Assembly (NCBI GenBank): GCA_017404335.1
Contig: JAFRCN010000004.1
Location: 62,001 to 126,000 of the forward strand
Length of the DNA: 64,000 nucleotides
Direction: 5' to 3'
From: Candidatus Saccharimonadota bacterium
GTDB lineage: Bacteria > Patescibacteriota > Saccharimonadia > Saccharimonadales > Saccharimonadaceae
The notes under the pieces: generated by a model
What the model saw: the letters and a program-made list of their open reading frames with translations, nothing else
The model's database searches: none
What the model was told of the DNA's origin: nothing
Shown: in pieces, positions 43,201-46,126 of the stretch
Layout of the letters: each line of letters starts with the position of its first letter
Numbering within the stretch: position 1 is the first letter of the stretch
Made by a program: the position numbers and the translations under genes

Positions 43201-43256
43201 GCATAAGCGAGGGGTAGGGGGTTGTAATATCTGGGATGGTGTGGTAAGTTTGGCGT
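43201..43256 (+). promoter_or_regulatory. Conserved 56-bp promoter repeat, copy 1
   Basis: Begins GCATAAGCG, then GGGGTAGGGGGTTG. -35 TTGTAA (43222-43227), 17-nt spacer, -10 TAAGTT (43245-43250), 6 nt to the ATG. It shares 44 of 56 positions with copy 2 (44407-44462), with identical spacing. Confidence 0.75.
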
Positions 43257-43649
43257 ATGAAAAAGAATGGAAGAAATGGGAGGATTATTATCCCTGCCAA
43301 CAGGAAGCCTTGGCCTCACGAGCTGAGGACTGCAAGGATGCTTGCCGTTGCTGGATACTGTGTTGAGTTTTTGTCTGAAAAAAATTTGCACGCTCCAGAT
43401 ATCCTTTTGAATGGTGTAGAATATGAGATCAAATCTCCAGAAACTGGAAAAACGTCTTCATTGGAGCAATCAATCAGAACAGGACTTAAGCAATGCCCGA
43501 ATGTGATTATCGACTCTTCACGCATGAAAATGCATGATGACCGAGTATGTAGGTTTCTTATAAAAAAATGCCGTGAGCAGAAACAGATTAAGAAAATGAT
43601 TCTCGTGACGAAAACTGGCAACATAATTGACATTTTTGAGCTATTCTGA
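43257..43649 (+). CDS. PD-(D/E)XK nuclease-like protein (CdiA-CT tRNase type), copy 1
   Basis: 130 aa. PHE (20-22), D48 in APDILLNG and E57-I-K59 form the PD-(D/E)XK pattern found in contact-dependent-inhibition tRNase toxins. It has no delivery domain, no signal peptide and no recognisable immunity gene next to it. It has the same motif order as the second copy at 44463, though the sequences have diverged. Leaderless by promoter spacing. A toxin role is inferred from family; a free-standing housekeeping nuclease is possible. Confidence 0.72.
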   Translation: MKKNGRNGRIIIPANRKPWPHELRTARMLAVAGYCVEFLSEKNLHAPDILLNGVEYEIKSPETGKTSSLEQSIRTGLKQCPNVIIDSSRMKMHDDRVCRFLIKKCREQKQIKKMILVTKTGNIIDIFELF

Positions 43650-43714
43650 TAGTATTATAAGTAACGAAGTCCTTGCAGGGCGCAGTATGCACTTAGCGCG
43701 AGGACTTCTTTTTT
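43627..43714 (+). ncRNA. Promoter-driven short hairpin RNA after nuclease copy 1
   Basis: TTGACA (43627-43632), 17 nt and TAGTAT (43650-43655) lie in the 3' end of the nuclease gene. From about 43662 a compact hairpin follows: GAAGTCCT (43666-43673) with AGGACTTC (43701-43708), enclosing GCGC/GCGC, then a T run. It could be simply the gene terminator; the good promoter just before it suggests a separate RNA of about 50 nt. Confidence 0.5.
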
Positions 43715-43739
43715 GTTATTTATGATAAGATGGAATAGT

Positions 43740-44267
43740 ATGTCACATGTTTCGAAAAATAATCGTAAAAATGTTTGGAAGATTATTTCCGTATTGTTAG
43801 TGATTGTTTGGATGGTGATGATTTTTGTGATGTCGAATTTTCCGGCGGAGGTGTCGGATAGGCAAAGTGGCGTAGTAGTGGAGCTGACGAAAAAGATTTT
43901 TAATATCTCGACTGAGCAATCGGAGTTATTAGACAATTTGACGACTATTGTGCGGAAGTGTGGGCACGCTTTTGAGTATTTTGTGTTGGGCGTATTGCTG
44001 CTGAATATGCTTCGGCAGTTTTGGTCCGCGAAGCGTAAGGGCGGGTGGGCGAGGTATTGGTATTTGGCGGTGGTTGGTGCATCCATCTATGCAGTGACGG
44101 ATGAGGTGCACCAGGCTTTTGTGCCGGGGCGTTCGTGCGAGCTGCGTGATGTCATAATTGACACCGTGGCTGCTGGTGTGGGGGTGGGAGTGGTGATGCT
44201 AATTAGGCGATGGCGGAAGGCCTTCAGCAATCGGGAAGATAAACAATTAATTGATGGTGTAGCATGA
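43740..44267 (+). CDS. VanZ-like membrane protein
   Basis: 175 aa with four membrane segments (about 12-34, 68-88, 101-121, 135-153). The VanZ-family residues appear in KCGHAFEYFVLG and DEVHQAFVPGRSCELRDVIIDTVAAGVG. The family gives low teicoplanin resistance in enterococci, but its members are widespread and of unclear function. Start at 43740 is set by TAAGAT (43726-43731), 8 nt upstream; an earlier ATG precedes the promoter. Confidence 0.85.
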   Translation: MSHVSKNNRKNVWKIISVLLVIVWMVMIFVMSNFPAEVSDRQSGVVVELTKKIFNISTEQSELLDNLTTIVRKCGHAFEYFVLGVLLLNMLRQFWSAKRKGGWARYWYLAVVGASIYAVTDEVHQAFVPGRSCELRDVIIDTVAAGVGVGVVMLIRRWRKAFSNREDKQLIDGVA

Positions 44268-44270
44268 TTT

Positions 44271-44377
44271 CGGTTGGGCGTGTTTTTGGGGAAATACGTC
44301 TAACCGTAAAAACAAGAAAAGTTCGCCCCTGTCGAATTACGGTTAAGCGTATATTGACAAAAATACGTCTAACCGTA
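44271..44377. repeat. Four alternating copies of an ACGTCTAACCGTA motif
   Basis: Copies at 44292-44308 and 44361-44377 are identical over 17 bp (AAATACGTCTAACCGTA). Inverted copies lie at 44337-44352 (TTACGGTTAAGCGTAT) and, more weakly, 44271-44283 (CGGTTGGGCGTGT). Neighbours can pair as two hairpins. Nothing codes here. They may be operator sites of the island or remnants of a mobile element. Confidence 0.7.
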
Positions 44378-44406
44378 GGATTTGATTACTTTGCTAATGA
44401 TTTTTT

Positions 44407-44462
44407 GCATAAGCGTGGGGTAGGGGGTTGAAGATTTTGGGGTGATGTGGTAGGTTCGTTGT
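44407..44462 (+). promoter_or_regulatory. Conserved 56-bp promoter repeat, copy 2
   Basis: -35 TTGAAG (44428-44433), 17-nt spacer, -10 TAGGTT (44451-44456), 6 nt to the ATG. A third partial copy of the G-rich block (GCGTAAGCG, GGGGTGGGGGTTGAAG) lies at 44966-44991 ahead of the ORF6N gene. Confidence 0.75.
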
Positions 44463-44876
44463 ATGAAAACAATAGAGTTGAAACAGGTGCCGAAGAATCG
44501 GCAAGGGGGTTTTCATAAAAACGGCATCCGTTTAGAGCCACATGAGGAACGGACTGCGGAGTTTCTTACATTGTATGGTTTTAATATTGAAGTAATACGA
44601 CCGATGAATACGCCGGAGGTACATAATCCTGATATTCTGATGAGCGGTACGATTTGGGAAATGAAGGCGCCAGAGTCTTCAAATCTTAAGACAATTAAGA
44701 AAAGAATACATGAGACATCAGAGCAGCCTAATCATCTCGTGCTTGATTTACGGAAGACTAGAAAGGATTATGAAAAAGTTGAGAGAGATGCGATTCGGCG
44801 TTTTCAAACAAACGCAGACTTAAGAAGAATGATCCTAATTACAAATGAGAAGAAAATACTAGATTTTAAAAAGTAA
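44463..44876 (+). CDS. PD-(D/E)XK nuclease-like protein (CdiA-CT tRNase type), copy 2
   Basis: 137 aa. PHE (26-28), D57 in NPDILMSG, E66-M-K68, then a basic helical segment with RKTRKDYEK and a final hydrophobic strand RRMILITNEKKIL. Same motif order as copy 1. No immunity gene, no secretion signal. Its promoter repeat implies co-regulation with copy 1. Confidence 0.75.
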   Translation: MKTIELKQVPKNRQGGFHKNGIRLEPHEERTAEFLTLYGFNIEVIRPMNTPEVHNPDILMSGTIWEMKAPESSNLKTIKKRIHETSEQPNHLVLDLRKTRKDYEKVERDAIRRFQTNADLRRMILITNEKKILDFKK

Positions 44877-44882
44877 CTGTGG

Positions 44883-44945
44883 TATAATGATGAGTATTGA
44901 GGGCGACCCCGTGGTTAAGTCCGCGAGGCCAAGCCCTCTTTTTTG
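44883..44945 (+). ncRNA. Promoter-driven short hairpin RNA after nuclease copy 2
   Basis: TGG-TATAAT (44883-44888) directly follows the nuclease stop. Transcription from about 44895 would give a RNA of about 50 nt folding as GAGGGC (44899-44904) with GCCCTC (44933-44938), an inner CGTGG/CCGCG stem, and a TTTTTT tail. It mirrors the arrangement after copy 1. A plain terminator is the alternative reading. Confidence 0.5.
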
Positions 44946-44965
44946 TGTTTTTATTTTTGTTTTTA

Positions 44966-44991
44966 GCGTAAGCGTGGGGTGGGGGTTGAAG
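44966..44991 (+). promoter_or_regulatory. G-rich promoter repeat, partial copy 3
   Basis: GCGTAAGCG, then GGGGTGGGGGTTGAAG, as in copies 1 and 2, but the downstream half is not conserved and no clear -10 follows. About 50 nt before the ORF6N start. Confidence 0.55.
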
Positions 44992-45040
44992 TATTTTTTA
45001 AACTATGATAGAAGTCTCTACAAGATAAATGGGAGATTTT

Positions 45041-46126
45041 ATGGTTAAAAAAGATAAGGAGAGTGATAAAAGCGAATCATCTGCAATTATTAGTGAGTCG
45101 ATGATCCGGGATAAGATATATACAATTCGTGGACAGCGGGTAATGTTGGATGCGGATTTGGCAGTAATATATGGGTACGAGACTAAGGCATTTAATTGAC
45201 AGGTAAAGAACAACATCGAAAAATTCGAAGGGGAGGATTTTATGTTTCAATTGACACGTAATGAAGTGCGAAGCCTTTTGAGGTGCAAAAATTGCACCTC
45301 ACGAAATGTCGCACTGTTTAGCGGCAATGAAGGTGGTACTCGATATTTACCATACGCTTTTACCGAACAAGGAATCTACATGCTAATGACGGTACTACGA
45401 GGAGAGCTTGCAACAAAGCAAAGTAGAGCGTTAATCAGAATGTTTAAGCAAATGAAGGATTATGTTTTAGATAATCAGGAAAAATTGGACTATCGGAGCA
45501 ATCTTCAACTTGCATTAAAAGAGATTGGCGATTTACAAAGTATAAAAAAGTTAAATAATGATATCATCCGAATAGACAATCAGATTTCTGATGTTAATGA
45601 GAGACTTAATAATACCGTTACTAAATCTGAGATTTCACCGATTTTGCTAGATTTTAAGAATGGTGTAATACAAAAGGAATTTGTGATTATGGGTGGTGAA
45701 CTATTAAAAGCAACAGATGTGTATACTGATTTGTATGCTAGTGCGAAGAAAAGCATTTATCTAATCGATAATTACATTAGCATCAAGACGCTCCGACATT
45801 TTTGTAAAGTAAAAGATGGCGTTGAAATAACGGTGTTTAGTGACAATTTAGGGAACTATCTACACTCTAGCGATTTAGAAGATTTTAAGAAAGAATTTCC
45901 ACGAATTAACTTGAATTTTATCAGGTCAGAAAATGCAATACACGACAGGTTTATTATATTAGACTACAAAGAAAAAGACGAGAAAATTTATGTGTGTGGC
46001 GCTTCAGAAAAGGACGCTGGGAAAAAACTGACGACGATAAAACTTTTTGACGATCCTGGGTTGGCAAGCATAGTACATGATGTGGTGAAAAGACTTAAGA
46101 TTAATCCGAGTTTACAGTTGGAGTAG
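45041..46126 (+). pseudogene. ORF6N-domain protein with PLD-like C-terminus, broken by an in-frame TGA
   Basis: The frame opens at ATG 45041 (GGGAG upstream) and encodes a typical ORF6N start (IYTIRGQRVMLDADLAVIYGYETKAFN), hits TGA at 45197-45199, and continues in the same frame with QVKNNIEKFEGEDFMFQLTRNE. A restart is possible at ATG 45242 behind GGGGAGG, giving 294 aa. The C-terminal half has a PLD/TIR-neighbour-like domain with IHDRFIILDY (H-D-R variant of HxK). ORF6N proteins are phage- or mobile-element-linked DNA-binding proteins. A single base change explains the stop. Confidence 0.78.

Follow-up and report, generated by a model that had tools for sequence, protein, structure and literature searches.

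A 64,000-nucleotide stretch from a Candidatus Saccharimonadota bacterium of the order Saccharimonadales (contig JAFRCN010000004.1, positions 62,001 to 126,000, forward strand; the whole stretch is called the window here) carries two small nuclease genes, each followed by a promoter and a compact hairpin RNA, and the question is what such an RNA does to the nuclease in front of it. An earlier note, made from the letters of the window, had offered two answers: the RNA neutralises the nuclease or its mRNA, or it is just a terminator. Comparison with about 150 distinct nuclease loci from Saccharimonadales genomes suggests that each cassette is likely to be a toxin-antitoxin pair, in which a nuclease, probably a tRNase, would be the toxin and a cognate RNA, made from its own stronger promoter, would act as antitoxin by binding the protein directly. 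The evidence throughout is comparative. The two cassettes, in window positions, are composed as follows.

43201-43256, forward strand: promoter region of nuclease 1, with GCATAAGCG, a G-rich stretch, -35 TTGTAA (43222-43227), -10 TAAGTT (43245-43250) and 6 nucleotides (nt) to the ATG, read from the sequence.
43257-43649, forward strand: nuclease 1, 130 amino acids, CdiA_C PD-(D/E)XK fold, putative toxin of RNA family A (PF18451, E 6e-10; catalytic columns invariant, alignment A5).
43627-43655, forward strand: promoter of RNA 1, TTGACA, 17 nt, TAGTAT, with TG ahead of the -10 and with the -35 located within the nuclease 1 gene.
43666-43708, forward strand: RNA 1, a family A structured RNA, then a T run (model R1, 60.8 bits, E 3.9e-12, as a member of the training alignment; covariation).
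44407-44462, forward strand: promoter region of nuclease 2, with GCATAAGCG, a G-rich stretch, -35 TTGAAG (44428-44433), -10 TAGGTT (44451-44456) and 6 nt to the ATG.
44463-44876, forward strand: nuclease 2, 137 amino acids, CdiA_C PD-(D/E)XK fold, putative toxin of RNA family B (PF18451, E 3.2e-12; AlphaFold2 predicted local distance difference test, pLDDT, 90.5; 4g6v_A, Z 13.8).
44880-44888, forward strand: extended -10 of RNA 2, TGgTATAAT.
44898-44939, forward strand: RNA 2, a family B structured RNA with conserved unpaired GA and CCAA, then a T run (model R2, 58.0 bits, E 2.1e-11, as a member of the training alignment; covariation).

Both window nucleases are intact, contain the D..ExK motif and score above the curated cut-off of the Pfam family CdiA_C (PF18451), in agreement with the earlier note's assignment of both to the PD-(D/E)XK (CdiA-CT-like) nucleases. 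Residues E28, D57, E66 and K68 were invariant across 72 aligned nucleases and, judged from this alignment, the active site is complete. The AlphaFold2 model of nuclease 2 gave a single significant Foldseek match, 4g6v_A, a toxin domain of contact-dependent growth inhibition (CDI) (E 5e-8; VIA-align 2 Z 13.8 over 117 aligned residues, root-mean-square deviation 2.7), and a profile search likewise retrieved 4g6v. The second-ranked structure was a T-loop tRNase; no ToxN-like chain was found among the matches listed for this model, a listing that by itself excludes nothing. The CDI relative 4g6v cuts tRNA-Ala in its acceptor stem, and the nearest structures by fold are tRNases that are active by themselves (PMC9086364). 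Because the fold relatives comprise a tRNase of the tRNA-Ala acceptor stem and a T-loop tRNase, the nucleases are, by analogy, likely to be tRNases as well. PADLOC and NCBIfam gave no useful match, and no relative of nuclease 2 was found in phage, plasmid and IMG/VR collections; its closest relative in a named collection, 65% identical, came from a Candidatus Saccharibacteria bacterium of sheep duodenum.

The CDI toxins share the fold and the catalytic motif with these proteins, but in other respects they differ. The nucleases investigated here are stand-alone proteins of 130-137 amino acids without delivery domains, not the tail of a large CdiA that CdiB exports, and no CdiI immunity protein lies next to them. 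The flanks of 130 loci contained no conserved immunity gene; the commonest flank family, a surface-protein-like open reading frame, occurred at 17 of the 130. This supports the absence of a protein immunity gene noted earlier in the window. Stand-alone CdiA_C genes were present in 30 of 60 close genomes and in 111 of 392 sampled Saccharimonadales genomes (about a quarter), and a phylum-wide sample yielded one match above the cut-off outside this order. Up to 12 copies per genome were observed, in the 0.7-Mb genome G226 (L078-L086), where several different RNA families lay behind the twelve matches. At one locus (L023) a larger phage-head-like protein ended in the CdiA_C domain, and no RNA of the cassette kind lay downstream.

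In the window, each nuclease has a promoter and a hairpin RNA of 40-43 nt following within about 20-25 nt of its stop, in agreement with the arrangement first described there. The same order was seen nearly everywhere in the 3' flanks of the relatives: a stop codon, a -10 box, about 9 nt, and a hairpin of 38-50 nt ending in T. A strict rule combining -10, hairpin and T run was satisfied behind 101 of 150 nuclease genes and behind 20 of 302 neighbouring control genes (Fisher p 2e-42), and some of the 20 control matches were themselves RNAs of the cassette kind. With a looser rule, whose count includes some chance matches, the layout was found at 135 of 154 loci in the forward direction and at a further 10 in reverse only. 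The hairpins alone were more stable than shuffled sequence (folding z -3.7 for RNA 1 and -3.1 for RNA 2). Covariance models of Rfam gave no match at the gathering threshold, nor up to E 1. A peptide hidden in the RNAs was also considered and was rejected, because the RNA lengths are not divisible by three and in no family does a frame stay open throughout; RNA 2 happens to fall within an open reading frame of 53 codons.

When the RNAs were laid along the nuclease tree, several families could be distinguished, which switched together with the protein clade. RNA distance was correlated with nuclease distance (Mantel r 0.56, reached in 0 of 2000 permutations), whereas the 45 nt just beyond the RNA, used as a flank control, gave an r of 0.03; nuclease and RNA are thus inherited as a unit in unrelated surroundings. 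Compensatory changes, in which both sides were altered and the pair was kept, were found in 13 of 16 pairs of family A, 13 of 15 of family B and 9 of 12 of family F. For families A and B the compensatory count lay above all 500 shuffles, and sliding the partner abolished it. In family B the unpaired GA was invariant and the opposite CCAA nearly so, while the stems varied, a pattern that, on sequence grounds, fits a protein-binding RNA and does not fit a mere terminator. The automatic consensus fold of the family D alignment recovered the inner stem only, probably because two subtypes align badly. A hairpin-loop motif, YYGNAY, was enriched (60 of 107, against 30 in shuffles); since it is not universal, it was not used as a defining feature.

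The loci were also approached from the RNA side. From 147 genomes of the genus, searched with the family A and family B covariance models, 60 RNA loci were fetched, 44 of them outside the model-building set; 29 of these 44 have an adjacent nuclease. Among all 60, a nuclease lay within 120 nt at 45, with the RNA directly downstream on the same strand (of an intact gene or a remnant) in 41 and convergent in 4. Fourteen had no nuclease within 120 nt, 13 of which had none in the fetched stretch, and one was a rearranged case. These orphan RNAs mostly retained the -10 at the usual distance, and where the RNA lay on the opposite strand its promoter had flipped along with it. Tandem RNAs could also be observed: L022 has three consecutive units (two assigned to family A by the model, the third to family D by eye), L178/L214 the series A+A+B, L188 two family B units separated by 4 nt, and L164 a further tandem. 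Paired units a few nucleotides apart, apparently on one transcript, were noted at L188, L106 and L084 and recall the antitoxin repeat arrays of type III systems.

A natural deletion was found in the window's own genome (six contigs, 686 kb). In a family C cassette on contig 5 (L035, 2190-2400, minus strand) the nuclease had been deleted in frame, leaving MKKGKIIPNGVVLE joined to ILDFEK and a stop, a frame of 20 codons compared with about 129 normally. The front promoter, the -10 behind and the RNA were all intact, and the RNA was identical to that of the intact relative L095. Directly behind the family C RNA stood a family F RNA with its own TATAAT, likewise without a nuclease. As far as the sequence can tell, this deletion is what the loss of a toxin with retention of its antitoxin would be expected to leave behind.

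Cognate co-variation would also be expected if the RNA were a working part of the nuclease, as guide, scaffold or activator of a ribonucleoprotein effector, and PD-(D/E)XK domains do occur in RNA-dependent effectors. We nevertheless consider this explanation unlikely: within families no variable guide segment was seen, many RNAs persist without a nuclease while nucleases without an RNA are rare, and the closest fold relatives act as tRNases alone (PMC9086364).

The other answer of the earlier note, termination, is rather less probable still. The hairpins would then serve the nuclease genes as ordinary intrinsic terminators, sometimes bidirectional ones, and the -10 boxes would be incidental. 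This reading accounts for the stem and T run at the end of nearly every RNA and for their place 3' of a gene, where a terminator normally stands. It is strongly opposed by family-specific RNA sequences that track the nuclease clade, by compensatory stems with invariant unpaired bases, by opposite-strand copies whose promoter is flipped too, by tandem copies and promoter-bearing orphans, and by the rarity of the layout behind control genes.

Base pairing of the RNA with the nuclease mRNA, as in type I systems, where a small RNA gene likewise sits beside a toxin gene, is very improbable, and this half of the proposed neutralisation found no support. RNA 1 is somewhat complementary to the nuclease 1 mRNA at 43323-43338 (z about -2), and this locus and L017 are the two single cases that exceed the average. 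When own and other nuclease mRNAs were compared, the mean z was -0.01 in the start region and 0.01 in the coding region; antisense pairing as a general rule was rejected for this lack of excess complementarity. Complementarity was not conserved in position among close relatives, the RNAs are tightly self-folded, and the toxin is a nuclease instead of the small hydrophobic peptide of type I systems. A selfish mobile element, with nuclease and RNA travelling as one and the RNA having a role in mobility or homing, would fit the unrelated flanks of the cassettes but is hardly credible, as no conserved partner gene was found in the locus flanks, none was found in phage, plasmid or viral collections, and the nuclease-less remnant retains promoter and RNA only.

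Neutralisation of the nuclease protein by its cognate RNA is the best reading of the comparative data, and several points weigh against it. Expression and binding are deduced from comparison, and a handful of nucleases have no recognisable RNA (e.g. L025, L069, L098, L126). The orphan RNAs could be remnants still to be lost. Mismatches to the -10 consensus were fewer in RNA promoters (0.60) than in toxin promoters (1.57), a comparison that is biased because the RNAs had been selected by a recognisable -10. The diversity among the RNA families is too great for a common descent of all of them to be proved, and no RNA antitoxin acting on a PD-(D/E)XK toxin was found in the open-access literature.

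The two nuclease promoters are organised alike. GCATAAGCG occurs at 43201 and at 44407, and the ATGs, at 43257 and 44463, come after exactly 56 nt in each case, so that the shared start distance, -35, spacer, -10 and 6-nt gap read earlier from these letters were found again. The two regions are 81% identical over 63 nt and have a common plan (-35 TTGTAA/TTGAAG, a 17-nt spacer, -10 TAAGTT/TAGGTT, 6 nt, ATG). The mRNA of nuclease 1 is probably leaderless, and the nuclease mRNAs in general look leaderless. The view that this 56-bp repeat is an essential shared part had to be given up: with up to three mismatches, its 21-mer core was found in the whole 686-kb genome at the two window sites only (0.01 expected in the window), and a looser form, GGGGTTG with a leaderless promoter, at 27 of 150 relatives (about 0.6 expected). 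The repeat is local and is not what defines the cassette, which family-wide consists of nuclease, downstream promoter and RNA.

A third, diverged G-rich promoter repeat was noted at 44960-44997, directly behind RNA 2 and before an ORF6N-domain gene (45029-46126), which contains an in-frame TGA at about 45197 and is either a pseudogene or affected by a sequencing error. Between nuclease 1 and nuclease 2 sits a VanZ-like gene. Two palindrome-like repeat copies (TTACGGTTAGACGTATTT or complement) lie between the VanZ gene and nuclease 2, at 44267-44377, with a promoter-like site, TTGACA-16-TAGGAT, inside; the arrangement resembles an operator.

To our knowledge, only few protein toxins are neutralised by RNA. 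RNA-neutralised toxins were defined by repeat arrays before ToxN-like genes. The type III systems ToxIN, CptIN and TenpIN resemble the cassettes in combining a toxic nuclease with a small structured cognate RNA, in having several RNA families that each go with a toxin clade of their own, and in an RNA that is thought to sit on the protein; the co-variation of nuclease and RNA agrees, at the level of sequence, with the direct binding that characterises type III. The type III layout is a tandem repeat array upstream of a ToxN-like toxin, under one promoter with it and with a terminator between (PMC5086642), whereas here the RNA lies downstream or convergent with its own -10, most loci have a single RNA unit and few have tandems, and the toxin is a PD-(D/E)XK CdiA_C protein. 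An RNA antitoxin outside the ToxN group is known from Clostridioides difficile, where the non-coding RNA of AbiF-RCd22 binds its toxin directly and thereby neutralises it both in cis and in trans (PMC12373285); there the protein belongs to Abi_2/AbiD/F and two RNA motifs precede the gene. Since the defining type III layout is absent and AbiF-RCd22 stands outside the ToxN group, the cassettes are classed as an RNA-antitoxin variant nearest type III in function and not as a type III member. No description of this nuclease-RNA arrangement was found in the open-access literature (bioRxiv was outside the scope), and it looks so far undescribed.

The following mechanism may be proposed. The toxin, a small intracellular nuclease of the PD-(D/E)XK kind and probably a tRNase, would be made from a weak leaderless promoter, and a compact structured RNA of about 45 nt, with its own terminator and its gene placed just behind or convergent with the toxin gene, would be made in excess from its own stronger promoter. 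The cognate nuclease would be bound directly by the RNA, which would probably occupy the RNA-binding cleft as a putative substrate mimic, in the simplest form a putative tRNA-like decoy. Conserved unpaired bases in an asymmetric internal loop and the hairpin loop would provide specificity. On a stop of transcription, for instance in phage infection, or on loss of the cassette, the RNA would be gone before the protein and the nuclease would arrest translation. Such a release is modelled on ToxIN and on AvcID, whose RNA antitoxin binds and inhibits the toxin and decays once transcription stops (PMC10511110), the toxin there being a deoxycytidylate deaminase.

If this reading is true, the RNA-neutralised toxins would come to include a toxin of another fold, with another gene order and another expression logic, and more than 100 naturally co-evolved RNA-protein pairs would be a resource for studying specificity. 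More tentatively, with somewhat less than an even chance in our estimate, the cassettes may represent a large, diversified toxin-antitoxin or defence class in Saccharibacteria, whose CDI-type tRNases would be neutralised by single-unit RNAs that are transcribed independently and mimic part of the tRNA substrate, and whose orphan RNAs would immunise against other cassettes. For these reduced-genome epibionts, the cassettes would be a candidate defence or stability system.
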